A stretch of DNA of 51,377 nucleotides, from the NCBI GenBank assembly GCA_017433725.1, contig JAFRGQ010000011.1:1-51377 (forward strand), written 5' to 3'. The DNA comes from Lachnospiraceae bacterium. Its GTDB lineage: Bacteria; Bacillota; Clostridia; Lachnospirales; Lachnospiraceae. This document shows positions 3,459 through 50,486 of this stretch, in pieces. The position numbers and the translations under genes are program-made. Numbering within the stretch: the first letter of the stretch is position 1; every line of letters begins with the position of its first letter. The notes beneath the pieces are model-generated. The model was not told the DNA's origin and did no database searches. It saw only the letters and a list, made by a program, of their open reading frames with translations.

Positions 3459-5816
3459 TCAGCCGATAAATTTCGACATGACCGCATACAATTCCTGAGG
3501 ACTGAACGGTTTTGTCAGATGCTCATTCATGCCCGCAGCAAAGCTTCCTTTTACATCTTCCTCAAAGGCGTTTGCCGTCATAGCTATAATCGGGACCTGA
3601 TCTCCGCCGAGATCTTTTTCACTGCGGATCATTCGGGTAGCTTCAAGACCGTCGACCAGAGGCATCTGGATATCCATCAGAATGAGGTCATACGCTCCTT
3701 CCGCCTTTCGGAATGCATTGAGAGCTTCCTCACCGTTCATAGCTGTATCCACATCCAGTCCGGCCTTCTCAAGCATTTTCACGCCGATTTCCAGACTGAT
3801 TTTGTGATCATCAACAAGAAGCACTCTTCCCTTCTTGAACGAATATTTCCTGCTCGTTTCCGCAGGAAGTCTCGTGAATGTCTCATTTCTGTCATAGGAA
3901 ATCGGGAACGTCATGGTGACCGTGACACAGGAACCCCGATCATCGAGACTCTGTGCCTCTACACGTCCTCCCATAGCAGCGACATTGCTCTTTGCAAGTG
4001 TGAGTCCGAGATCGAGCTGATCAGGAGACTCAACCTGCACGATCACCTTCGGATCTACCGGTTCAAAAATCGCCGACAGATACTCTGCATTCACGCCGGT
4101 CGAACTGTCGGATATCGCAAATCTGAGTGTCGTTCTGTTACTCTCCCGCTTCTGCTCGGTGACCAACAGCCGGACCTTTCCGCCATTGGCATTGTAGTCA
4201 AATGTATTCTCCAGAAGTCTCGTCAGCACCTGTTCAAGACGATATCGGTCAGCCATGATCTGCTGAGGCACGTGACTCCCGAGCTCGACGGAAAATGTAA
4301 GTCCTCTCTCCGATGCACTCGGAAGCATTTTTGCCTCCAGGATGCCGAAAAACTCTGCAAGATCCAGCCTCTCCGGTGTGAGCAAAACACCGTTTCGCTC
4401 AATCTGGTGAAGGGTAAGCATGTCATCGATGATCGAGTGTATAGACGCCCCAGCCGTAATGATATTATCAAGATAGACCGCTTCCCTTGTATCGTCGGAA
4501 ATCTCCGACCGGGCAATTTCCGCAAAACCGATTATAGAACTAAGCGGTGAGCGAATATCCCTGCTGAGCCGGGATAATATGGAGTTTCTGGAATTCAAAG
4601 CATTCTGAACCTTATTCAGCGCATCCCGAAGTTCCGCTTCCCTCTCCATGGCGTTTTCAATGACACCGCTGACATCCTGAACCGTTCCGCATATCAGCTC
4701 TCCGGGGATATCAATTGTATAAAAAGTAGCCTTTTTGTGTTTCCGTGTTCCGTCCTCACCGATCGTTTCATAGTAAACAGTATAGTTGGACCGATGGTGC
4801 AGTTCCCTTCGGATATTTTCCAGTGCCAGCATTTCAAACACTTCATAATACCCTTCGGAATCCTTCGGAATCCTGTTCATAAAGCGATTCAGCAATACTT
4901 TGTAGTCAACGCCGTTTTCTTTGATGTCGCGCCCGGGGTTCCGGCGTATATCAGAGAACTTGTATGCTCTGTTATACTTCGCATCGATCAGATATACCCC
5001 GTCATAATCATTTTCGGAAACGGCACCGAGCAGTTCTTCCAGAATCTTTGCGCGGAAAACATCCACGGAGTAGAGCACCGCCTCCACATCCCCGGTATCA
5101 ACATTTTTTGCCGTGCTGATTGCCGTTGTGATCCACATCACCTTTTCTGTTTCCATATAGAAGGTGTGTTCCAGCGAAAAATGTGTGCGGCCCCTCTCAT
5201 ATTCCCGCATCAGTTTTTGACGATTGAACATACTCATGAAATTCCCGGAATCCTCTTTTCTTGCACAGCGCTCTGCAAGGAACTGGAAAAAAGCATCTAC
5301 ACTCATCGGATACAGAAGTTCCATTCCCTCAGGCATCTTGCCCAGAGGTATTCCCATCTTATTCTGCGAAAGATTGAGCCGGTACATTCCAAGGGCATAC
5401 GGAGAAACATCTGACATGAGTGTTATTTCCGAGTAATATCTGTTCCGAAGGTTCGTCCTTATACGATGTTCCGCCGTCACATCATAAAAGTAATGAGCCA
5501 TGACCCTATGACCTTCAAACTCGATCTCCCTTCCGTGAATCGCCCAGCACTTTTTTCTATGTTCAAAATATTCCTCGATATCATATTCTTTCCCGGACCT
5601 GATTTTATCCACAAATCTGAACCCACGCCACTCCGGACACTTATCGATAACTTCCTGACAGTTTTTACCGATCAATTCTTCCGCATCTGTTTCCGTGATG
5701 AACTCTTTTATGGTATCCGTGGCATACAGAATCTCCTGCGTCTCAGCATCACACACAAGGATGCATGTATCAGTATGATTCATCACTGCTTTTAACAAGC
5801 CATTAAAGCTTTCCAT
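3459..5816 (-). CDS. PAS hybrid sensor protein with degenerate kinase and intact receiver
   Basis: 785-residue soluble signalling protein. Order: PAS (about 8-115), a second PAS-like sensory stretch (about 150-390), HisKA-like helix (about 410-475), HATPase_c (about 515-640), receiver (about 665-785). The HisKA motif reads SRDIRSPLSSIIGF: the phosphoacceptor His is Arg419, with codon AGG read directly. The ATP lid is also weakened (DSSTGV instead of DTGxG, LDLGL instead of GTGLGL), although the N-box Asn survives. The receiver keeps its acidic pocket (VDD), Asp715 in LMDIQMP and the conserved Lys. It probably cannot autophosphorylate and may act as a sensor-regulated scaffold or phosphate acceptor. 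It diverges from the CheB-CheR-kinase fusion. AAGGCGGGA precedes the ATG. Confidence 0.85.
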   Translation of the reverse strand: MESFNGLLKAVMNHTDTCILVCDAETQEILYATDTIKEFITETDAEELIGKNCQEVIDKCPEWRGFRFVDKIRSGKEYDIEEYFEHRKKCWAIHGREIEFEGHRVMAHYFYDVTAEHRIRTNLRNRYYSEITLMSDVSPYALGMYRLNLSQNKMGIPLGKMPEGMELLYPMSVDAFFQFLAERCARKEDSGNFMSMFNRQKLMREYERGRTHFSLEHTFYMETEKVMWITTAISTAKNVDTGDVEAVLYSVDVFRAKILEELLGAVSENDYDGVYLIDAKYNRAYKFSDIRRNPGRDIKENGVDYKVLLNRFMNRIPKDSEGYYEVFEMLALENIRRELHHRSNYTVYYETIGEDGTRKHKKATFYTIDIPGELICGTVQDVSGVIENAMEREAELRDALNKVQNALNSRNSILSRLSRDIRSPLSSIIGFAEIARSEISDDTREAVYLDNIITAGASIHSIIDDMLTLHQIERNGVLLTPERLDLAEFFGILEAKMLPSASERGLTFSVELGSHVPQQIMADRYRLEQVLTRLLENTFDYNANGGKVRLLVTEQKRESNRTTLRFAISDSSTGVNAEYLSAIFEPVDPKVIVQVESPDQLDLGLTLAKSNVAAMGGRVEAQSLDDRGSCVTVTMTFPISYDRNETFTRLPAETSRKYSFKKGRVLLVDDHKISLEIGVKMLEKAGLDVDTAMNGEEALNAFRKAEGAYDLILMDIQMPLVDGLEATRMIRSEKDLGGDQVPIIAMTANAFEEDVKGSFAAGMNEHLTKPFSPQELYAVMSKFIG

Positions 5817-5943
5817 AGTATCCCGCCTTTATCAACACCTGTTCACACTCTATTTCAAGTCTCGCTCGCGAGACTTGGCGCGGGATTCGGGTCAGCTTTA
5901 GCTGACATCTTCCAAACCGAATCCCTGCGCATCCTCGCGGAGC

Positions 5944-6033
5944 GTATATCTCAGTGTAGGATTGACACCCGCCACTGAGACTATTTAGTTGCACACCGCC
6001 TATAGAGGCGGGGGCATCTCACACTGAGATATA
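5944..6033. repeat. 90-bp element bounded by perfect 14-bp inverted repeats
   Basis: GTATATCTCAGTGT at 5944-5957 is exactly complementary to ACACTGAGATATAC at 6020-6033. Inside are a second CACTGAGA copy and the hairpin CCGCCTATAGAGGCGG (about 5997-6012). The nested palindrome pattern resembles non-autonomous ends left by IS200/IS605-type elements, or a structured RNA. No second copy was noticed in the window. Confidence 0.5.
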
Positions 6034-6330
6034 CAAATCATCCTATAATACTTGTATGAAATGCTGTTATCTCAGTATAATAAATATATACTTTTATGCA
6101 TTCTAACAAATTCATTTTAACATATTTCACAAGAATAATACATTTTATTTTCATGACTTATGTAATTTTCTGACCGAATATGAACTCGCAGGAATTCGGT
6201 TCGGAATTAAGTCGGCTGGTACTAATCTACTTCCTCGCAAATTCCGCATGAGTGAATTGATTCCCGGTCAGTGCATACTTTACTATGGTATAAAAAAAGG
6301 CTACAATAACAGATATGAGAAGGTTGACTA

Positions 6331-6413
6331 TTTTTATTCTTCATCGCGCAACAATAGCGGGGAAGGCGCTTACTCGCCGCGCATGTCGCGTCAAGAACGT
6401 CGAGGCGTTCTTA
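6331..6413 (-). repeat. Copies of dispersed repeat families A and B
   Basis: 6331-6352 carries the family B signature TTTTTATTCTTCATCGCG. 6359-6413 is an inverted copy of family A, with GGAAGGCGCTTACTCGCCGC and the palindrome AAGAACGTCGAGGCGTTCTT. Closely similar sequences recur at 19878-19940, 22121-22187 and 39352-39433. Confidence 0.65.
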
Positions 6414-6447
6414 ATAGTCTTACTCCTAAAAATATAGCAGGAGGTAT

Positions 6448-9400
6448 ATGATGGAATACTCATCCGAAAAGCCACGCCAGGAACTTCAGCCGAACTGTGT
6501 TGTCGGCATCGGTGCTTCAGCAGGCGGACTCGAAGCGCTTCAGCAATTCCTTACATTCCTGCCCGGAAATACGGGCATGGCATTTGTCATCATTCAGCAT
6601 CTTGCACCCGATCACAAGAGTCTCCTCACAGATATACTGGGCAAGTATACCAGCATGCCGGTCATCGAGGCACGGGATGGAATGCGGGTGCTTCGCAACC
6701 ATATCTACATGATACCTCCGCGCTACAATCTTGAGATTGTCTCGGACGTACTTCACCTTCGCGAATATAATCACCAGAAGATCAATCATCCGATCGACAT
6801 ATTCTTCCGCTCACTCGCTGCGGCTTATGAGAACCGGGCTGTTGCAGTCATCCTGTCCGGCACCGGTTCTGACGGTACCAACGGAATTCGTTCCATTAAG
6901 GAACAGAACGGCGTCATCATCGTCCAATCTCCTGAAAGCTCAAAGTTCGACGGTATGCCGAGAAATGCGATATCGACCGGTTTTGTCGATATCGTGCAGT
7001 CACCGGATAATATTGCCCGTGAAATGGCGCACATCTCTGCCTCGCTGGTCGATTCGACCACACAGCTTCAGCTGACAGACAATGATTTGATGGGCAAAGT
7101 GTTCACCATATTAAAAAATGTCACGAATATTAACTATACATATTATAAGCAGACTACGATCCTGCGAAGAGTAGAACGCAGGCTTGTTGTCACGCACAAC
7201 CGGAACCTTCAGGAATATGTCAATTATCTGAACAATAATCCTGAGGAAGCAAAGATACTGGCCAAAGAAGTTCTGATCGGAGTCACCAGTTTCTTCCGCG
7301 ACCCTGACTACTTTGAAGTCCTCAAAGAACGTGTCATCAAAACTCTGATCCAGAATGGTCAGAAATCTGAACAGATCCGAGTGTGGGTAGCCGGCTGCTC
7401 CACCGGTGAGGAAGCTTACTCAATTGCTATCCTTTTCATGGAGGCCATGGAGGAGCTGAATATCCGGAGAGACATCAAGATTTTTGCGACCGACCTTGAC
7501 TCGGATTCCATCAGCGTTGCCGGTCGTGGCGTATACGGCGACAACATTATTGAAGATGTCAGCGTGACCAGACTTTCCCGTTACTTCACACGGAAAGGGA
7601 ATAAGTACTTTATTCGTCACGATATAAGGAAAATGATCGTATTCGCTCAGCACAACGTTTTCCAGGATCCGCCTTTCGGAAAGCTCGACCTGATAAGCTG
7701 CCGCAACCTGCTGATCTACTTCCAGACTGTCCTGCAGAGGAACCTTTTCGCCATCTTCCACATGGCGTTGAATGATCGCGGATATCTTTTCCTCGGCCGT
7801 TCCGAATCAGTCATCAATTATGACGATGTGTTCCGCACAGTCTGTGCAAATGAAAAAATATTCGTCCACAACGCCTCCGGCAAAGCACCGACCCATGACC
7901 GCATCAACTACGCGATGCAGGCTGTGGATATGCCGATTCTTCCGATCCATACCCCGAGACAGGAAACACAGAGCATAAAATATTCTCCGAGCGAACTTGA
8001 TACTTCCATTTTTGAATCGCTCATGCCCGCCACACTTCTGGTCGATGAGAACAATGAATTGACCCGCACCTACGGAGACTGCTCGAAGCTCATTTCCATG
8101 CCGACGGGAGCTGTGACGCTTGATGTATTTGCACTGATCCGCAACGACCTCAAGATTCCCGTTTCGACCGCACTCAAGGAAAGCCGTCAGAAACAGGAGC
8201 GCGTCGGATATGTGAAGATTCCGGTCCATCTCGAGGATACGCCGGAGTATATCTCCATTCTCGCAGAGCCTGTCAAGGATAAGATGGGCGTGTACACAGG
8301 ACATACAGCGCTCTCCTTCGTCCGCGGAAATACGCCCATTGAAGGTACTATGCAGGAATACCAGATCGAGACCGCTGCGGCCAGAAGAATTGCCAATCTG
8401 GAGCACGATCTGAAAGTCACGCAGGATAATCTTCGCCAGACGGTATCTGAACTCGAATCCGTCAACGCAGAGCTGCAGGCTGCAAATGAAGAGCTGCTCA
8501 CAGCAAATGAAGAACTGCAGAGTTCGAACGAAGAACTGCAGTCCGTAAACGAAGAGCTCTACACTGTAAATTCAGAATACCAATCCAAGGTAACTGAACT
8601 GGCCGGGCTGAACGACGATCTCGCCAATTTCCTGTCGACGACACTGGTCGGCATCCTTATGGTCGACCGCGACCTCAGCATCCGCAAGTTCACGGAATAT
8701 ATTGCATCCGAGTTCAATGTTGCCGACCAGGATGTGGGGCGCTCACTGCGCTACATCTCATATAATTTTGTAACGATCGACCTCATGTCCATCTGCCGCG
8801 AAGTCCTGCACACTATGAAGCCGGTCGAACGCAACTGCGCATCAATCGGAGGAAAGACCTATCTGCTTCGCATTGCGCCGTACCGCGTTCAGAGCATCAG
8901 CGAAATGCTGCCGGATACTTCATCGACATCTGTGAGAGTAAAAGGCCTCGTCATTACATTTGTCGACACCACGAAGCAGATTGACGACCAACAGCAGATC
9001 GAGGAGATGGCAAGGGCACTGCGCGAGGCAGTACGTTCCGGCCGTGAAAAGGAAACGTTCCTCTCTCATATGAGCCACGACATGAGAACGCCCATGACCG
9101 CCATCTTCGGTCTCACACAGCTCAGCCTGGAGGATAAATCGCTTTCGGAGCCTATCCGTGATAATCTGCAAAAGATACAGGCGTCGAGCCGTTATCTGAT
9201 GAGCCTGATAGAGGAAATTCTCGAGACAAGCCGTATCAATGCGGGAAAGATCGTTACGGTAAGCCATGCAGTTCAAGAGGATGCTCTTCTGGAAGATATT
9301 CACACGATCATCCGCGAGCGGGCAAGAGAAGCCGGACAGACTTTCCATTACATTATCCACGGCTGCCAGAGCCGCTATTGTCTGATGGACACCGAGCACG

Positions 9401-40093: not shown

Positions 40094-41329
40094 TCAGTTA
40101 AGAGCGGCTTCAGCACGGTCGCCAATAACGCCCATTCTCCTCAACTCGTCCACGGCATCATCAAATCTGGTGTGAGTATATGTCCCCAACGTGATATCCG
40201 TTTCCGAATGCCCCATAAGATAGGCCAGATGAACAGGGTTCATCCCCGCTTTTGCTTTCTTGCTGCAATAAGTATGGCGGCAGACATGCGGAGTAATGTG
40301 CGGAATCGGTTTCTTATATATTTTGTTGAACTTAATCCGGATATGCTTGAAATAATGTTCCCAATGAAGAGCAAGCATAGGATTATCATCCTTATCAAGA
40401 CAAATAAAATTACTCACACCGTCAACAGACGGATTTGCGGGGTTCATCTTCCTTTTTTCAAGAATAGTGCGGAATGCCTCATACACACCGTCTTCCATGG
40501 GAATCACCCTTGTTCCCGCTTTGGTCTTAGCTGTATCCTCGATATATACTCTTGTTCCGACACGATGCAGCTGTTTGTTAATGCTGATAGTCCTACGCTC
40601 CATATCCAGGTCATCAGTTGTCAGTCCGCAAAACTCGGAAATACGCATCCCTGTATTAAAAAGAATATATATCCCCTCGTAGTATCTTGAAAAGTGCTTA
40701 TCATTTCTGACAAATTCAAGAAATCTCCTTTCATCCGCCGGGCTGACAGCATCACGTCTTACTGAATCAGTCACGATAACTTCATGAAGCTGAAAATCAT
40801 CAAATGGATTCTTAAAAATCCACTCACTCTGTACGGCTTTACGGAATGCAGGCCGCAGTACTCCGCGAATATTCTGAATCGAGGAGTATCGCTTTTTGCC
40901 GCTTGCCTGTAGCTCTGTGAGCCATTCCATGGCGGTAGATGTGGTGACATCCTTTATCTTTACGTTCCCGAATTCTTCACTCTTAAGGAAGTTCTGCACC
41001 GTTTTATAGTTCTGTTTTGTTGTATTCTTTACCCTTCCGTTCGAACGTGTTTTTACATAAAAATCAACCAGTTCCGAGACTGTCATATCGCAGGTTGCAA
41101 AGTTTTCCTTTCTGTCTTTTTCCTTCTGATAGAGCGCCTCTTTCTCCCTTAACGATAATCCTGCCCGTTTTCCTTCCGGAGTGGGATCCTTTTCGTTAAG
41201 TCTCCATGAACGGAAATTCTTCTTTTTGCCGTTCTCGTAATAACTGAACCTGTATTCTCCGGTTTTCGGATCCTGGGTTTCGCCATTACGCAGAACGCGT
41301 CCGCGCTTGTCTTTTCGTTTTTGGCTCAT
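40094..41329 (-). CDS. int: Tn916-type tyrosine integrase
   Basis: 411-residue site-specific recombinase. It has an N-terminal arm-binding domain (KDKRGRVLRNGETQDPKTG, SYYENGKKKNFRSWRL), a core-binding domain (about 75-175), and a catalytic domain with the first Arg in FNTGMRISEFCGLT, HVCRHTYCSKK (His-x-x-Arg), the second His in LMGHSETDITLGTYTH and the nucleophile Tyr in that segment. It integrates and excises the element with the Xis-like protein upstream. The ATG at 41327-41329 follows AAGGAGG and a second GGAGG. The order vapE-xis-int on one strand is typical of small integrative elements. Confidence 0.93.
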   Translation of the reverse strand: MSQKRKDKRGRVLRNGETQDPKTGEYRFSYYENGKKKNFRSWRLNEKDPTPEGKRAGLSLREKEALYQKEKDRKENFATCDMTVSELVDFYVKTRSNGRVKNTTKQNYKTVQNFLKSEEFGNVKIKDVTTSTAMEWLTELQASGKKRYSSIQNIRGVLRPAFRKAVQSEWIFKNPFDDFQLHEVIVTDSVRRDAVSPADERRFLEFVRNDKHFSRYYEGIYILFNTGMRISEFCGLTTDDLDMERRTISINKQLHRVGTRVYIEDTAKTKAGTRVIPMEDGVYEAFRTILEKRKMNPANPSVDGVSNFICLDKDDNPMLALHWEHYFKHIRIKFNKIYKKPIPHITPHVCRHTYCSKKAKAGMNPVHLAYLMGHSETDITLGTYTHTRFDDAVDELRRMGVIGDRAEAALN

Positions 41330-41408
41330 TTTCCTCCTTTCCTCCTTAAGACATGCGCTATAGCATACGATAGTATACCATAGCAATGGCAGGATTATCC
41401 ATCTGTAA

Positions 41409-41901: not shown

Positions 41902-44220
41902 TTACTGTTTTCTAACGTAAATTCTCTGCTTACCATATATAGGAATGCGTTTGGTTCGTTCGGTCTTTTCCCAATCATCAATCCGACTCATAATCATCGC
42001 AATGCTATATGAGTCTGACTTACGCATATCTTCTTTAGCTTTACCGAAACACTCCGTCCAGATTTCAATATTCGACACCTCCATGCGTTTCACGCTGGCA
42101 GGTAAAAACAAACTACCTTCAAGGAATCGTACTCTTTCACCAAGGTCCATGGAATCCCAAATCTCCGGCAGGAGTTTATCAAGGTATTCCTGAACGGTGC
42201 CCTCACGATCATCACGTTCCAGGGCTTCCCGCTGTTCCTTTTCAGCATACTTTTCAAGTTCCGGCGTAAGATACAGTTTTTCCCCGGCTTTCGCAATAAG
42301 CGCGGTCTCTGCCCAGATTTGCTTCACGGCATTTTCATCGAGTTCCCATGGTTTGTATTTGCTTTCGCCTGTCACCTTCACGTGCCAGAACCTACGGTTT
42401 CCGGTAAAGTCCCGAAGGTATCCGTCACGGCTGTTGGTAGTTCCAAAGAAAACGCACTGCCTGGGATGCGGTGTTACTCTTCTGCCAAAACTCGCCCGAT
42501 ACTTGTCATCCATCCTCGATATAAACGCCTTCACTTTATCGATATCTGCCTTTTTCATGCCCTCAAGTTCCCCGATTTCCAGGATCCAATAGCCTTGCAG
42601 CTTTTCCGCCGCCGTCTTATCATTCATATCCGACAAGTTCAAGCTGTCCGAATACCAGTCACCTCCTATTTTTGAAATCAAAGTACTTTTACCGATTCCC
42701 TGACCACCGTTCAAAACAATCATATTGTCATATTTGATCCCAGGTTTATATACCCGGAGATATGCCGCACAGAGCTGCTTCCTAGTAACAGTCCGTACAT
42801 AGGGTGTATCAGCCGCTCCAAGATAGTCAATCAGAAGCGTTTCAACACGTTTTATACCGTCCCATTCCGGAAGAGCCTCGAAATACTCACGGATAGGATG
42901 GTAGGATCTGTCATCGGCTACTTTCGTAACCGCAATATTATAATTGCGCTGGGAGAAAGAGCCATAATGGCTGTCTATATAACTGATAAGCTGTGCATCA
43001 TCCGCATCCCTCCAGTACTGAGCCGGATGCTTCCAGGGCACACTACCTTTGATTTCCATGCCGTCCGCCAGCTGATTGAATACAATCGCTTTCAGGTTTG
43101 GATCATTTGCCATGATCAGCGTGATATTGTGAAGATTATTCGTTAATGTTATCCCCTTCTTGTTGTCATACTGAAGCAATTTCTTCCAATCATCCGAACC
43201 ATTCCCCTTATAATCCGTATCCGCCTCTTTCTGTTTTTCTGCAAGTACCAGGAACTTAACCTTCTCATCCGCAAGTGCAAACGCAGACATCTTCTGATAG
43301 GATTTTTTCGGATCATTATCCGGAAACCGGTGCATCCGGACGAGATCAAATGCATTCAAGAGTTTGCCGTTGGCGGGATCCGTAGCGTGATAGCTGTATG
43401 CAAAAACGTCATCATAGACCGCCAGACCCGCGGAACCCTCGCCTGCTTTGTAGTCATACCTGCCCGCTTGGGCTGACGGCTGATATACATCAGATAAGAA
43501 CTTTTCTATCGCCTCCCGTATCAGATATGCACGACAGAAAGCACCCACAACACCCTTTTTGCCGAAAGGATTTTCCTGCTTGTTTTTACCGGTCTTCATG
43601 GCTTTTGTCTCCCGGGAAGATACCGGCCATGAGGATATATCATGCCAATCATTATATTGACCCAGATAATAATCCGGATCCACCGGTTCACCGGCTATTT
43701 CCCTGAATACATACTGCCCATCGGCAGAAGTGGACGGCCAATACATAAGCCTGTACGGCTGGTATGTCGTATCATCGAACAACTCCATGTCGATTTCCTG
43801 CGCGACCTTTCGGGCTACTGCCGGATATTCCTCTTCTGTCACATCCCTTTTAAGAGGAAAGATAAGACGAAGCCTCGGTGCATAGGGCGTATGCTTATGT
43901 GTCGAATAGATGCACATTTTGTGCTTTCCTGCCTTTTCAAGCCTATCAATTACATTCTCAGTCCCATAATCCATATCAAGCGTCAACATCGACCTTAGCA
44001 ATACGTTTCCGGATTTCCGCTTGCCATCTTTCAAATGCCCTCCTACAAATCCGCCTATATCCTTGATTTCGCCCTGCTGTGCCTTCGTCATCTTACTGAA
44101 TTCTTCAACAGTTTCTGTCGTCCGATACGTTGTGCTGACTTTCCGGCAAAAATCTTCCCAAGATATCTCGCTGTTCCTCCATTCCTTCTCAAATCGAGAC
44201 TTACCATATGCTATCTTCAT
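41902..44220 (-). CDS. VapE-domain primase-helicase of an integrative element
   Basis: 772-residue replication-type protein. The N-terminal half (about 60-220) resembles the primase-like domain of phage and satellite proteins (LLRSMLTLDMDYGTENV, then MYWPSTSADGQYVF). The C-terminal half is the VapE ATPase: REYFEALPEWDGIKRVETLL, Walker A LNGGQGIGKST at about 502-512, Walker B-like GYWILEIGELEGM, then QCVFFGTTN and NRRFWHVKV. Similar proteins drive replication of phage-inducible islands and plasmids. It begins just downstream of three stacked hairpins and an array of repeats, fitting an origin-adjacent initiator. GGAGGG precedes the ATG. After its TAA the same frame stays open for about 40 codons (VEQREQRISQFVPADRLEYA). 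Confidence 0.88.
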   Translation of the reverse strand: MKIAYGKSRFEKEWRNSEISWEDFCRKVSTTYRTTETVEEFSKMTKAQQGEIKDIGGFVGGHLKDGKRKSGNVLLRSMLTLDMDYGTENVIDRLEKAGKHKMCIYSTHKHTPYAPRLRLIFPLKRDVTEEEYPAVARKVAQEIDMELFDDTTYQPYRLMYWPSTSADGQYVFREIAGEPVDPDYYLGQYNDWHDISSWPVSSRETKAMKTGKNKQENPFGKKGVVGAFCRAYLIREAIEKFLSDVYQPSAQAGRYDYKAGEGSAGLAVYDDVFAYSYHATDPANGKLLNAFDLVRMHRFPDNDPKKSYQKMSAFALADEKVKFLVLAEKQKEADTDYKGNGSDDWKKLLQYDNKKGITLTNNLHNITLIMANDPNLKAIVFNQLADGMEIKGSVPWKHPAQYWRDADDAQLISYIDSHYGSFSQRNYNIAVTKVADDRSYHPIREYFEALPEWDGIKRVETLLIDYLGAADTPYVRTVTRKQLCAAYLRVYKPGIKYDNMIVLNGGQGIGKSTLISKIGGDWYSDSLNLSDMNDKTAAEKLQGYWILEIGELEGMKKADIDKVKAFISRMDDKYRASFGRRVTPHPRQCVFFGTTNSRDGYLRDFTGNRRFWHVKVTGESKYKPWELDENAVKQIWAETALIAKAGEKLYLTPELEKYAEKEQREALERDDREGTVQEYLDKLLPEIWDSMDLGERVRFLEGSLFLPASVKRMEVSNIEIWTECFGKAKEDMRKSDSYSIAMIMSRIDDWEKTERTKRIPIYGKQRIYVRKQ

Positions 44221-44521: not shown

Positions 44522-44704
44522 TTTATCGTTCTTACATTAAATCTGATTATACTATATCATTCTCATAACCGTTGCACAAGGTTGCATATAGTTTCATCTA
44601 GTTTCATTTGAGTTTTTTTTCGCGCTAAAAAGCTCTGACAGCAGACCAACGAATCTGTTGATTATATCATATCGCGCTGTCAAGGGCGGCTCAAGATGAC
44701 AAAA

Positions 44705-44775
44705 ATGACATTTTTGTCAATTTTGGACATTTTTGACATAATTGACATTTTTGACATAATTGACATTTTTGTCAC
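44705..44775. repeat. 18-bp TTGACA-rich direct repeats (iteron-like)
   Basis: The unit TTGACATTTTTGACATAA occurs at 44742 and 44760 (second copy ending GTCA) and, with one change, at 44724; a more degenerate copy precedes at about 44705. Each unit contains two GACAT words, and TGACATTTTTGTCA forms a palindrome. Regular phased repeats beside a replication gene are typical of initiator or repressor binding sites. Confidence 0.65.
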
Positions 44776-44855: not shown

Positions 44856-45310
44856 TCACTGGATATTCTCCATACACTGGTGGATGTCGGATGGATATTG
44901 TTCTTCTTCCACTGGATATTTCCCACGCACCACTGGATATCTACTGGATATGCTGCCTCTTTCACTGGATATTTCCCGCGCACCGCTGGATATCTACTGG
45001 ATATGTGGTCTCTTTCACTGGATATTTCCCGCGCACCGCTGGATATCTACTGGATATGCGGCACCTTTCACTGGATATTTCCCGCGCACCGCTGGATATC
45101 TACTGGATATGCGGCACCTTTCACTGGATATTTCCCGCGCACCACTGGATATCTACTGGATATGAAGTCACTTTCACTGGATATTTCCCGCGCACCGCTG
45201 GATATCTACTGGATATGTGGCCTCTTTCACTGGATATTTACTGCGTATCAACTGGATATTTCTCGCGCAGGCACTGGATATTTAGTGCGTATATCCACAG
45301 AATATCCAGG
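44856..45310 (+). repeat. 53-bp tandem array with three CTGGATAT words per unit
   Basis: Six consecutive 53-base units begin with CACTGGATATTTCCC at 44910, 44963, 45016, 45069, 45122 and 45175, with a seventh partial start at 45228. Degenerate words flank both sides (from about 44860 to 45290). Each unit holds CACTGGATAT, CGCTGGATAT and TACTGGATAT separated by CCCGCGCAC and a short variable spacer. Only a few bases differ between units, mainly in that spacer. An inverted pair (ATATCC) closes the array near 45293-45309. 53 is not a multiple of three, and all three forward frames stay open through the array, so those frames are a repeat effect. Location beside vapE suggests an origin or partition site. 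Confidence 0.9.
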
Positions 45311-47081: not shown

Positions 47082-47759
47082 TTATATAATATAGTAATCG
47101 AACACCTCTGGCTCTACCCAGATATTATTTCTTATCCACAAAACAGATTTTTCAACGAGTTCATCATTATTATATCCACGAATTCGGGGTATTCTTATTC
47201 GAAACATCTCAGGTTTCAAGACATCCCTCAGCTTCAAAAGATTATCGATCACCTTTTCATTATTGGAACCGGTATAATCTTTATAGATTGTCGAATCCAT
47301 ATCCTTAATATCTATGATCCACTCATCCAGGTCTTCGACCAACGGCTCCACGTTTTCCCATGGGACATTCAGTGATGTTTCTATTCGCTTATCCCATCTA
47401 TCATCCGCTAATTGACATACCTCATGGATAAACGCTGACTGCAACAGTGGTTCCCCACCGCCAAACACGATCCCTCCGCCGGTCATAAGATAATATAACT
47501 CGTCTTTCCTGAGCACTTTCACCAATTCTTTCGGTTTATAGAGGGCTCTTGGTGTATCAGAATAATCCTCTTTTTCGCACATCAATCCTTTATCGTATTT
47601 CTTCAAAAACTCAGGGATTTCAATGAAGGTCTCATGACAGGCTTCATTTATGCAATATTTGCAATGAAGCGGACAGCCATACATGGCCACTAACGTAGAT
47701 ACGCCTTTTCCATCTGAAGCCATGCGCAGCCTTGAAACAGACATAACATCACCGACCAT
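47082..47759 (-). CDS. Minimal radical SAM enzyme, cassette copy 1
   Basis: 225-residue radical SAM protein with cluster ligands Cys29, Cys33 and Cys36 in YGCPLHCKYC, and the SAM-binding GGGIVFGGGEPLLQ. It lacks a SPASM or extra ferredoxin domain, so it has the size of activating enzymes (pyruvate formate-lyase and anaerobic ribonucleotide reductase activases) or QueE. Compared with copy 2 it has about 20 extra residues after the cluster, with two more Cys (EACHETF, LMCEKED). The substrate is unknown. The start follows GGGAGGTGTGAGGA, which overlaps the end of the partner gene 3 bases upstream: coupled expression. Confidence 0.88.
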   Translation of the reverse strand: MVGDVMSVSRLRMASDGKGVSTLVAMYGCPLHCKYCINEACHETFIEIPEFLKKYDKGLMCEKEDYSDTPRALYKPKELVKVLRKDELYYLMTGGGIVFGGGEPLLQSAFIHEVCQLADDRWDKRIETSLNVPWENVEPLVEDLDEWIIDIKDMDSTIYKDYTGSNNEKVIDNLLKLRDVLKPEMFRIRIPRIRGYNNDELVEKSVLWIRNNIWVEPEVFDYYII

Positions 47760-47762
47760 TCC

Positions 47763-48755
47763 TCACACCTCCCACTTTGACAGTTCACAATCTGGAATAA
47801 TCCTTTTTTCCGGAGTTATTCGGTTTATTGCATCTCTCAAATATGCTGATTCTTCTTCACATTTCTTACAGGTTCCGGCGCAGGGACCGCTGAATGAGCA
47901 CCTGGCCGGATAATACTTAATGTTGTTCGCCCTCGCGATTTGAATTCTTAATTGACGGAGATACTCACAGATCTTTTTACCATCTGTTCTTGGAGGCTGC
48001 CATTCAACTTCTTCCCTGGTTCGTTTATCATTTTTAGGATACTGCTCCTTTACTATTATTCCAAGCGTCCCCTGCGGAGCAACACTCAGCGGTACTTTTA
48101 CTTCAGAATCCAAGGCAGCTATGTTTTTACCTGCCGCAGCATATCCTTCCGTAACCGGAATATAAGAATTTGTCCCAAAATCAAAGCAGGATACTTTATT
48201 TATCGATTCAATGTTGTTTATAACGGTAGGCAAATATGAACTATAGGCATCATATACTGACCACATTGTGATTTTGTTATGGTTTTCTTTATCTATCTTA
48301 CTCAGGTATTCAGCTGGATTAAAATACAAGACAGACTTGAGTTTTGATAAATCTGACAAGAGTTGTTTATGAGTTGTTATGCGTCTTTTTGCTTCAAATC
48401 GAAATGGTGCCATAGTGCACAGATGTAAATCATTATATTCATTCAGATCTTTGACAACATGAAAGGGATACAAGCTTTCCGGATTATTATCAGTCAGAAA
48501 CAACACGCTGTCCCACCAATAGAGACGATTATTGAGTTCTCCTGCTACGGATTTTAATGCTTTATAGTGCATAGTCTCAGTGCCGAAGCTATCTGTTCCC
48601 ATGCCAACCTGTTTGTATGGACTCACAAAACATTCGTACTTGTCTGTAACCTTTTTCCCATTCAGACATACTACCAGAACATTATCTTTGTATTTTTCCA
48701 ATTCTGCATTAGCATGATTCCAAACATGCGCTGTATCTGTTATAACGATTCTCAT
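47763..48755 (-). CDS. Unrecognised radical-SAM partner protein with C-terminal four-Cys motif, copy 1
   Basis: 330 residues, family not recognised. The N-terminus MRIVITDTAHVW and the following YECFVSPYK, VLFLTDNNPESLYPFHVVKD and CTMAPFRFEAKRR blocks look like an alpha/beta domain. The middle includes VYDAYSSYLPTVINNIESIN. The C-terminus carries CSFSGPCAGTCKKC (Cys286, 292, 296, 299), then a fifth Cys in IPDCELSKWEV. The four Cys could hold an Fe-S cluster or zinc. The start at 48755 follows CAAGGAGATAAAC. It is transcribed with the radical SAM gene 3 bases downstream and duplicated in the next cassette. Confidence 0.85.
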   Translation of the reverse strand: MRIVITDTAHVWNHANAELEKYKDNVLVVCLNGKKVTDKYECFVSPYKQVGMGTDSFGTETMHYKALKSVAGELNNRLYWWDSVLFLTDNNPESLYPFHVVKDLNEYNDLHLCTMAPFRFEAKRRITTHKQLLSDLSKLKSVLYFNPAEYLSKIDKENHNKITMWSVYDAYSSYLPTVINNIESINKVSCFDFGTNSYIPVTEGYAAAGKNIAALDSEVKVPLSVAPQGTLGIIVKEQYPKNDKRTREEVEWQPPRTDGKKICEYLRQLRIQIARANNIKYYPARCSFSGPCAGTCKKCEEESAYLRDAINRITPEKRIIPDCELSKWEV

Positions 48756-48870
48756 GTTTATCTCCTTGATAGCATTCAGACTGTACAAGAATATAATGCT
48801 TCATCTTTCCATGGATGATCATGTATGGTTACCTTCAGCCGTACCGGCGTCTTTCTTACGAAGTAGATAT

Positions 48871-49491
48871 TCAGACAACTATATAATCAAAAACATCCGG
48901 CTCCACATGGAAGGTCTTCTTCACCCATTCAGCAGATCTGGCAACTTGTTCATCTGTATTATAACCGCGAATATGAGGAACCCTTATACGAAAGGCTTCC
49001 GGACTCAATAATCTCCGTAATCCCATCAGGTTATTCAACACCTTTTTATTATCGGAACCGGTATATTTTTGATATCTGAACTTATTCAGGTCTTTGATAT
49101 CAATGATCCACTCATCTATGTCTCCGACCACCGTTGCAACACTTTCCCACGGGACATTAAGCGAAGTCTCTATCCTCTTTTTCCATCCTTCACCTGCAAG
49201 CCGACAGACTTCATGAATGAACTCCGCCTGGAGCAACGGTTCACCTCCTCCAAATACAATCCCGCCCCCTGTCATAAGGTAATAGATTGCATCCTTCCTG
49301 AGCAATTCAATAAGTTCCTCCGGCTCATATAATGCTCTTGCCGTACCGAGCAAAGTATGCTTATTATTGTTGCATTCATTAATACAATACTCGCATTTAA
49401 GAGGACATCCATAAAAGGCTACCAACGTAGATACTCCTTTGCCATCTGTCGCCATGCGCAGTCTGGAAACGGACATGATATCTCCGGTCAT
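48871..49491 (-). CDS. Minimal radical SAM enzyme, cassette copy 2
   Basis: 206-residue paralogue of the copy 1 enzyme. Cluster Cys29, Cys33 and Cys36 are in YGCPLKCEYC; SAM-binding GGGIVFGGGEPLLQ is identical to copy 1. Conserved blocks RIETSLNVPWE, DEWIIDIKD, KYTGSDNKKV and a C-terminal PHIRGYNTDEQ are shared. The segment after the cluster is shorter (CINECNNNKHTLLG). The ATG at 49491 sits behind GGGAGGTGTAAA, one base after the partner stop. This copy is intact although its partner gene is frameshifted. Confidence 0.88.
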   Translation of the reverse strand: MTGDIMSVSRLRMATDGKGVSTLVAFYGCPLKCEYCINECNNNKHTLLGTARALYEPEELIELLRKDAIYYLMTGGGIVFGGGEPLLQAEFIHEVCRLAGEGWKKRIETSLNVPWESVATVVGDIDEWIIDIKDLNKFRYQKYTGSDNKKVLNNLMGLRRLLSPEAFRIRVPHIRGYNTDEQVARSAEWVKKTFHVEPDVFDYIVV

Positions 49492-49492
49492 T

Positions 49493-50486
49493 TTACACCT
49501 CCCATTCAATCAGTTCACAATCCGGGACTATTCTCTTATCAGGTGGTATCCGATAAAATTCATCCCGTAAATAAGCTGCTTCCGCATCGCATCTTTCACA
49601 GGTTCCTGCACACAGACCAGTAAAAGAACACGTTTCCGGATAATAATCAATTCTGTTGGCTTCAGCAAATCTTATTCTCATCTGCCGTAGATAATCACAG
49701 ATCCTTTTCCCATCAATTCTCGCACGTACTTTTTCCACGTCTTCTTTTGTCCGACTGTAATTATTAGGATAATACTCAGAATCTACATCTCCGAGCATAT
49801 CGGGCGGTCCTGCTACCAGCGGCACAGTAACCCTTGTATCCAACTCAGACTTATTCAAATGCTCCGCCGCGAGGTATCCTTCAGAAATCGGAACATAGGA
49901 ATTTGTTGCGAAGTCAAAACACGATGTCCTATTGATCTTCTCTATGTTGTTTATGACAGTGGGTAAGTACGATCCGTAAATATCGTAGACTGAACTTATC
50001 GACATTTTTTTCATGATCTTCAATCTTCACCCTACTCAAATAATCATCAGAACTGAAGTACAGGATTGATGTCAGCTCCGAAAGGTCCTCCAACAGATCC
50101 TTATGGGCTTTAATCCTCTTTTTACTTTCAAAATAAAAAGGCTCCATTGTACATAAATGCAGTCTATTGAACTCATTAAGATCTTTGATTACATAAAATG
50201 GATACAGACTTTCCGGAAAATTATCAGTCAAGAAAAGTATTGTATCATGCCAATACAGTCTGTCATTTAGTTCTTCAGCTACTGACTTCAATGCTTTATA
50301 CCTCATGGAACTGATGCCGATGCTGCTGCCCAATACCATAGCCTTATAAGGACTGATAAAACATTCATATTTATCCGTTACTCTTTTTCCATCCAGGCAG
50401 ACTACGAGAAGAACATCTTTCATTATTTCCAATTCGGAATACTTATTAATCCAATACAACATATCATCTGTGATTACTATTCTCAT
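49493..50486 (-). pseudogene. Radical-SAM partner protein, copy 2, frameshifted in a seven-A tract
   Basis: Two overlapping frames together reproduce the whole of copy 1. The 5' frame starts MRIVITDDMLYW and runs to SRVKIEDHEKN, then loses similarity. The 3' frame carries SISSVYDIYGSYLPTVINN to the end, with CSFTGLCAGTCERC and CELIEWEV. The break falls at a run of seven A (T at 50005-50011 on the plus strand). Removing one A gives DHEKMSISSVYD, which aligns without gaps to NHNKITMWSVYD of copy 1. It may be a true mutation, a phase-variable tract, a site of transcriptional slippage or a sequence error. MRIVITD was taken as start by analogy; AGGGGTG lies upstream. Confidence 0.85.

Follow-up and report, generated by a model that had tools for sequence, protein, structure and literature searches.

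Among described systems, the closest to the gene pair reported here are the glycyl-radical-enzyme activases, exemplified by the PFL activase, which introduces a glycyl radical (PMC9326890), and the radical S-adenosylmethionine (SAM) systems for ribosomally synthesized and post-translationally modified peptides (RiPPs), which resemble it in combining an enzyme with a client that has separate recognition and target segments (PMC8326336). Divergent FtsZ-superfamily proteins with extra domains have been described as the FtsZl1 and FtsZl2 families (Makarova and Koonin 2010, PMC2875224), and QueE, a radical SAM family enzyme, is reported to regulate cell division in E. coli as a moonlighting activity (PMC11142719). 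The pair in question lies in a 51,377 nt stretch of DNA from a Lachnospiraceae bacterium (GenBank assembly GCA_017433725.1, contig JAFRGQ010000011.1), the whole of which is referred to as the window. It consists of a partner protein (A), with an FtsZ-like N-terminal part of about 250 residues and a cysteine-containing C-terminal domain of about 65 residues (the Cys domain), and a short radical SAM enzyme (R). The two form a real, tightly linked and apparently undescribed system, suggestive of protein modification by an activase-like radical SAM enzyme whose client, unexpectedly, derives from FtsZ. That R modifies Cys-domain clients at the glycine of a short motif is the reading favoured here, and we consider the case for and against it to be evenly balanced.

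Two cassettes occur in tandem on the minus strand (A2-R2, then A1-R1), as delimited by open reading frame (ORF) analysis of the window, with the order and tight coupling recognized in an initial annotation of this DNA. A1 (47763..48755; ATG at 48755, stop ending at 47763) is an intact protein of 330 aa, in which its ORF, a 22-row alignment and an hhalign comparison with FtsZ delimit a divergent FtsZ-like domain (residues 1 to about 250; 48006..48755) and the Cys domain (residues about 255 to 321; 47790..47993). Three nucleotides separate its stop from the start of R1 (47082..47759, 225 aa), and a single one separates A2 from R2 (48871..49491, 206 aa). Both enzymes proved to be radical SAM proteins of the size first annotated, R1 matching PF04055 at 1.2e-11 and R2 being placed beside it by Pfam, alignment and tree. 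The same annotation gave each cassette a 330-residue partner, which is true of A1 but not of A2: from its ATG at 50486 to its stop at 49493 the latter measures 994 nt, which is not a multiple of three, and its coding sequence is divided between two frames (50495-49929 and 50023-49493), which overlap, match the two halves of A1 and join near a run of adenines. The 5' part of this frame-shifted gene (49932..50486) carries the FtsZ-like domain and the 3' part (49493..50023) the linker and Cys domain (49520..49723); the two pieces were used as separate queries. R1 and R2 share 66% identity and form a sister pair in a quick tree built from 85 R proteins (SH-aLRT, the Shimodaira-Hasegawa-like approximate likelihood ratio test, 95; without bootstrap), from which it follows that the cassettes arose by duplication. 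A1 and A2 are 62.5% and 59.6% identical over the two halves, far above chance.

In order to follow the pair across genomes, named records were scanned, yielding 164 relatives of which the best 80 were retained as 77 loci. At 36 of the 37 best loci, L019-L055, R directly follows the Cys domain, its match beginning anywhere from 45 nt ahead of the partner frame's end to 30 nt beyond it; the remaining locus, L042, is a fragment without a Cys domain. A first survey of the family matched A in 11 of 200 genomes, with R adjoining in all 11, once as a fusion. A survey of 299 family genomes detected R (E <= 1e-40) in 15 and the Cys domain in 14, all of which also had R (Fisher P 4e-23), and in 198 Bacteroidales genomes both occurred in the same 4 (P 1.6e-8), values to be taken with caution given that the query alignments hold rows from several surveyed genomes and that each sample includes one chosen centre genome. 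The fifteenth R-bearing genome of the family holds a remnant with two stops. In the Selenomonas order, 5 of 189 genomes had the Cys domain. A second member of the genus to which the window belongs was searched and had neither Cys domain nor R, and the window's own genome encodes a further pair, of a lipoprotein-type Cys protein and R, on contig C38.

Coupling is looser at the 40 loci L056-L095. Here R lies directly after the Cys gene in 13, 1.3-1.4 kb downstream in 3 and directly before it in 4 (L068, L083, L087 and L092), whereas 20 have no R on the stretch inspected (up to 10 kb on each side, less at contig ends). These 20 lie in 14 Bacteroidota genomes, 12 of which encode R elsewhere. The obligate pair first proposed thus stands in the sense that partners do not usually occur without the enzyme, all Cys-bearing loci of L019-L055 having an adjoining R, but not as a rule of local gene order in Bacteroidota. 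In 18 genomes searched, between 1 and 7 Cys matches were found (a few of them fragmentary), together with one R in 15 genomes, two in 1 and none in 2. Clients therefore outnumber the enzyme, and the occurrence of one R beside several unrelated payloads is the pattern expected of a modifying enzyme that acts through a recognition tag.

The Cys domain contains five cysteines, four of which (C9, C38, C42 and C45 of the domain, including a Cx3Cx2C motif) are invariant in 24 aligned rows. The C-x5-C-x3-C-x2-C ending originally noted is present in both window partners, but its first cysteine is missing from two rows, L055 and L053. The domain is shared by clients of diverse architecture. In Lachnospiraceae it also occurs N-terminally, ahead of a hydrophobic stretch and an acidic tail, and in Bacteroidota ahead of TonB-type or SusC/RagA-like regions. 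A lipobox-like site, searched with a permissive pattern, follows it in 59 of 76 non-redundant proteins of this N-terminal type, suggesting that the domain occupies the place of the signal-peptide n-region. Two fusions with R have opposite orders, A-Cys-R at L012 and R-Cys at L164; the N-terminal domain of the former shows a weak likeness to A (P 0.0013) and none to FtsZ directly (P 0.054). No Pfam or NCBIfam model matched A or the Cys domain at cut-off in the proteins scanned. As regards a possible zinc-ribbon nature of the domain, its only recurring named match was TIGR03826 YvyF (E 1e-4 to 0.04, far below cut-off). The window A proteins matched no PADLOC or PHROG family, and a search of solved structures with the Cys domain gave nothing significant. 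A segment found at either end of a protein, or fused to R, is more likely to serve in docking or as a cofactor site, which makes a conserved glycine outside it the better candidate target. Of the roles initially suggested for the partner (substrate, carrier of an Fe-S cluster or glycyl-radical-like target), that of a client is hence favoured, while the cysteine-bearing C-terminus loses ground as the modified site, the Cys domain being mobile.

The N-terminal domain of A, which the initial annotation could not place, is well supported as an FtsZ descendant by profile comparison and tree. Four loci from Selenomonadaceae (L051-L054) encode an FtsZ paralogue as the partner, with the Cys domain and then R behind it; all four paralogues match PF00091 (E 2.7e-33 to 5e-21), one also matches PF12327, and the best solved match of the L052 partner is FtsZ (3e-75). 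At L034, a fifth locus from Selenomonadaceae, the partner is of the divergent A type. The R proteins of L051-L054, which are the 4 FtsZ-type R, cluster together in the quick tree (SH-aLRT 94), within a clade of 37 rows (SH-aLRT 98) in which they are joined by every one of the 32 A-type R and by one other, L177. Comparison of the A N-terminal profile with that of FtsZ by hhalign gave a co-linear match over A1 residues 51-212 (probability 79%, P 1.7e-5) spanning the P-F-x-F-E-x-x-x-R and x-x-D-F segments, against best P values of 0.13 for 30 column shuffles, 0.29 for reversed FtsZ and 0.033 for 20 other real protein clusters of the same loci. A1 differs from FtsZ in matching neither PF00091 nor TIGR00065 directly and in carrying a Cys domain and an adjoining R gene. 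A search of 12 genomes with TIGR00065 did not recover A, and the region of the guanosine triphosphate (GTP) loop reads TDNNPESLYPF in A1, with the glycine-rich GGGTGTG-type loop gone, so that A probably does not bind GTP. In a solved-structure search with A1 or its profile nothing was significant; FtsZ appeared in the right register at E 0.69, behind two unrelated chains. FtsZ paralogues are frequent in three genomes of the Selenomonas order (G316, G437 and G450; L190-L213), where 4 to 6 matches to the FtsZ model were obtained in each, some fragmentary and one being the Cys-FtsZ itself. TIGR00065 found no FtsZ in the window's own assembly (76.8% complete, 2.66 Mb) and did find it in the 11 other genomes searched.

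Outside the Cys domain the clients share a glycine motif, [L/T]xGx[V/I]. In an unbiased pattern scan of 74 non-redundant exported tails, LxGxV ranked first (28 tails against 1.6 in shuffles), and the wider form [LMITVF]xGx[IV] occurred 112 times, in 59 of the 74 tails, against 16 occurrences in shuffles, a comparison that overstates significance because of the shared ancestry left after filtering at 70% identity. Its density was 19.8 per 1000 aa in the tails, compared with 3.6 in a control set of 1021 further ORFs from these loci and 3.0 per 1000 residues in polar windows of the control ORFs; for LxG[DE]V the values were 5.5 in tails and 0.05 in control ORFs. When the centre residue was varied, with flanking letters fixed after the motif had been seen, only glycine was enriched (87 against 7.5), all other residues staying at 1.2x or less and asparagine coming next (6 against 4.7). 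By the widest pattern, the L108 tail holds six copies. The linker of A-type partners is poorly conserved save for the segment TLGxIxxPxYP, whose glycine is kept in every one of the 20 rows, of 22, that have no gap there. This segment reads TLGIIVKEQYP in A1 (48036..48068), with G232 as the proposed target, and MLGDVDSEYYP in A2 (49766..49798), the same form as the LMGDV of exported clients. FtsZ-type L054 has no clear copy. With a glycine-only scan and reuse of the motif in clients that are not exported, the case for it does not depend on shuffles alone.

The enzyme is, by its family and structure matches, a relative of the glycyl-radical-enzyme activases. Its best named family is TIGR02494, an activase subfamily (5.6e-38 for R1), to which R1 and R2 score 130.9 and 130.5 bits, below the curated cut-off of 174.35; it is also shorter than these activases at the place of their ferredoxin insert, and no glycyl radical enzyme domain was found by Pfam or NCBIfam in the partners scanned. 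Among solved structures, sequence comparison places R nearest to the PFL activases (3c8f/3cb8, E 5e-20); the alignment with them spans profile positions 14-198 and takes in the radical SAM core, CxxxCxxC, GGGEP/GGE and D-G-x-G. The cysteines of CxxxCxxC (C29, C33 and C36 of R1; 47652..47675) and the D-G-x-G motif (D16-G-K-G19 of R1, aligned to D-G-P-G of the PFL activase; 47703..47714) are invariant in 22 R rows, the arginine that follows the latter being replaced by serine, threonine or another residue. The DGxGxR segment, located at the glycine-peptide site, is an activase signature, for which a literature search returned no support; the fused relative L012 keeps DGPGIR. Pfam assigned only PF04055 and PF13353 to R, with no SPASM domain seen. 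R1 has a weak QueE-like PHROG match (4.8e-9), and matches to QueE models (1e-6 to 4e-5) are far weaker than that to the activase family.

TIGR02494 activases carry a ferredoxin insert, and the Cys domain could take its place by supplying R in trans with an auxiliary Fe-S cluster. A and R would then be one enzyme with some other substrate, either a different protein, for example FtsZ, or a small molecule, and the glycine motif would serve for binding. The shortness of R relative to the family profile (in four R scanned, the best stretch starts only at position 102-107 of 293) would fit such an arrangement, as would the four invariant cysteines with their Cx3Cx2C and the fusions at L012 and L164. 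Yet a single R is met by up to seven Cys matches per genome, on unrelated payloads, and a carrier alone would have no need of the glycine motif that the tails repeat; we regard this explanation as unlikely, if still the strongest of the alternatives.

What lies at the core of the favoured reading, modification of the motif glycine by R, is that an enzyme of a glycine-targeting family stands beside clients with a glycine-only motif. We infer from this a scheme of docking, metal binding, glycine chemistry, tail export and contact with division proteins. R would be a stripped-down relative of the activases that acts on client proteins, joined to each client by the roughly 65-residue Cys domain, which probably binds metal. 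Clients would bear at least one glycine motif, [L/T/M]-x-G-[D/E/x]-[V/I], often followed by proline, in a flexible stretch, and R would most likely take a hydrogen from the C-alpha of the motif glycine while enzyme and client are both cytoplasmic. The Cys domain of lipoprotein-branch clients would act as an N-terminal leader ahead of the lipobox, so that the modified tail may then be exported. In the branch of the window the client would be a soluble FtsZ descendant, probably not binding GTP, with the motif in the linker between the FtsZ-like and Cys domains.

Several observations weigh against this scheme, in addition to the residual ancestry among the tails and the late choice of flanking letters in the centre scan. 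Fifteen of the 74 tails lack [LMITVF]xGx[IV] and 12, including 3 of 8 from Lachnospiraceae, lack even the widest pattern, and the linker glycine is absent at L024, L044 and L036. In two genomes, G304 and G313, Cys proteins were present but a genome search found no R. The R proteins of the window have serine or threonine at the arginine position of the PFL activase DGPGIR. At L164 (G638) the Cys domain is fused behind R and no tail-bearing client was spotted within 1.5 kb, which fits a cofactor role better than a client tag. Finally, the link of A to FtsZ comes from one kind of profile comparison together with the tree, sequence searches reaching no further than E 0.69.

The 12 tails without any form of the motif and the tail-less Cys domain of L164 would also be accommodated if the glycine motif were a sorting or binding signal unrelated to R, the enzyme modifying instead a residue of the Cys domain or a cysteine. 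The motif is nevertheless found both in exported clients and in FtsZ-like clients that lack an export signal, between which no other shared feature was seen than the Cys domain and R, and this possibility is therefore given a minor place, clearly behind that of the Fe-S carrier. More doubtful again is that R stores a radical on the linker glycine and so turns the client into a catalytic glycyl-radical protein. True glycyl radical enzymes have an R-V-x-G-Y loop, which the R-L-x-G motifs of 10 tails resemble (0.6 in shuffles), and the closest relatives of R are activases. The clients scanned, however, match no family of glycyl radical enzymes, and a glycyl radical should be short-lived in the flexible and often exported tails that bear the motifs, making this outcome improbable.

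Modification at the motif glycine may have a link to the division machinery. The C-terminal peptide of FtsZ binds division proteins, and in family members the resident FtsZ terminates in IPDFLKN, IPDFFKR, IPSFLSKK or a similar sequence. IPxFL motifs were found in four R tails (L019, L021, L023 and L031), that is in 4 of 27 extensions of at least 8 aa, against a mean of 0.06 and a maximum of 2 in shuffles; of 1021 control ORFs, 5 had such a motif within the final 25 aa. The A tail of L055 has the sequence SIKIPDFLRRDSDE. R1 contains an insertion, IEIPEFLKK (47598..47624), that resembles the same peptide and is unique to it among 22 aligned R, R2 being without it. This evidence is supporting but post hoc. 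Motifs of this kind on some R or clients suggest that the modified complex may reach the division machinery. Taken as a whole, the proposal would define a new class of post-translational modification, in which a radical SAM enzyme guided by the Cys domain alters the glycine C-alpha of a short repeated motif. Its targets in Bacteroidota and Lachnospiraceae would be the exported tails of lipoprotein or TonB-like proteins. In Lachnospiraceae it would also act on proteins derived from FtsZ, as it would in other Bacillota, Selenomonadaceae among them, and there mimics of the FtsZ C-terminal peptide on enzyme or client would couple it to the division machinery. This wider proposal is put forward tentatively, with somewhat less confidence than modification of the motif glycine itself.

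Comparison with described systems supports the original view that the pair is undescribed, no family model at cut-off being available for A or the Cys domain. In the literature searched, which covered few subscription papers and was mostly judged from titles, no description of the A-R/Cys-domain system was found, nor, by title among the matches listed, any gene pair joining a radical SAM protein to FtsZ. RiPP systems differ in that here no SPASM or twitch domain and no small leader-core precursor is seen, R having 206-225 aa and the window client 330 aa; the clients are large and structured, and in one branch a lipobox follows the recognition domain. The words lipoprotein, TonB and FtsZ do not appear in a review of radical SAM RiPP systems (PMC8326336). 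FtsZl1 and FtsZl2 occur in the context of a vWA protein, a GTPase and OmpA-type proteins, and the word "radical" is absent from the main text of their description (PMC2875224). If the favoured reading is correct, radical SAM glycine chemistry would be joined to the FtsZ cytoskeleton, the only other link between radical SAM enzymes and division that was met being the reported moonlighting of QueE (PMC11142719), from which R differs in being encoded with an FtsZ-like client. It would also be a modification system common to Bacillota and Bacteroidota that annotation has split in the one annotated record, a Segatella pair labelled merely "energy transducer TonB" and "radical SAM protein". The shared glycine motif offers a directly testable target site.

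The setting of the cassettes was also considered. A Tn916-type integrase (40097-41386) and a VapE-like helicase (41905-44220) are encoded in the window, and the mobile or defence island initially suspected was not borne out by the wider comparison. PADLOC likened R to viperins at superfamily level alone (pVip; E 9e-4, 16.8 bits), and the viperin model NF038283 gave 11 and 21 bits against a cut-off of 180. Scans of viral contigs gave 0 and 1 loci, and 2 of 50,697 phage records had matches, both of them unannotated "Bacteriophage sp." scaffolds from faeces and for that reason given no weight. One of 72,556 plasmid records holds the system, with both Cys proteins and R. A phage or defence origin is thus unsupported, the PADLOC likeness being weak, the viral and phage loci few and the neighbours diverse. 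That the pair is a cassette of phage-defence or toxin type on a mobile island, as its nearness to the integrase and helicase, sporadic distribution (including absence from the other genome of the genus that was searched), decayed copies and occurrence on a plasmid might suggest, is highly improbable in view of these same results and of the paired lipoprotein-type version in the same genome.

No third conserved gene is widespread among the neighbours of the 37 loci, the commonest other cluster occurring in 7 of them, several of which are Lachnoanaerobaculum. The two genes that follow the cassettes (46981-46070 and 46107-45751) were first reported as having no recognizable family, and indeed matched none in Pfam, NCBIfam, PADLOC or PHROG at the limits used; they are apparently no part of the system, since no homologue was found among the 37 related loci (blastp E 1e-8, 40% coverage). 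Interrupted or fragmentary copies of A, besides A2, occur at L042, L046, L048, L049 and L050. By eye, the A gene of L050 (87-1691) is split by an apparent AbrB/PIN toxin-antitoxin pair, its R being internally shortened, and at L044 (82-12428) many double-zinc-ribbon proteins and a reverse-transcriptase-like ORF (5627-6931) lie beside the A-R pair, whose A protein, of 649 aa, has zinc-ribbon and other domains fused in front of it. In the window, a tandem array of a 53-bp unit (44892-45259; 6.6 copies, 89% matches) separates the VapE-like helicase from the cassettes, and an A/T-rich 18-bp repeat is present at 44697-44771.

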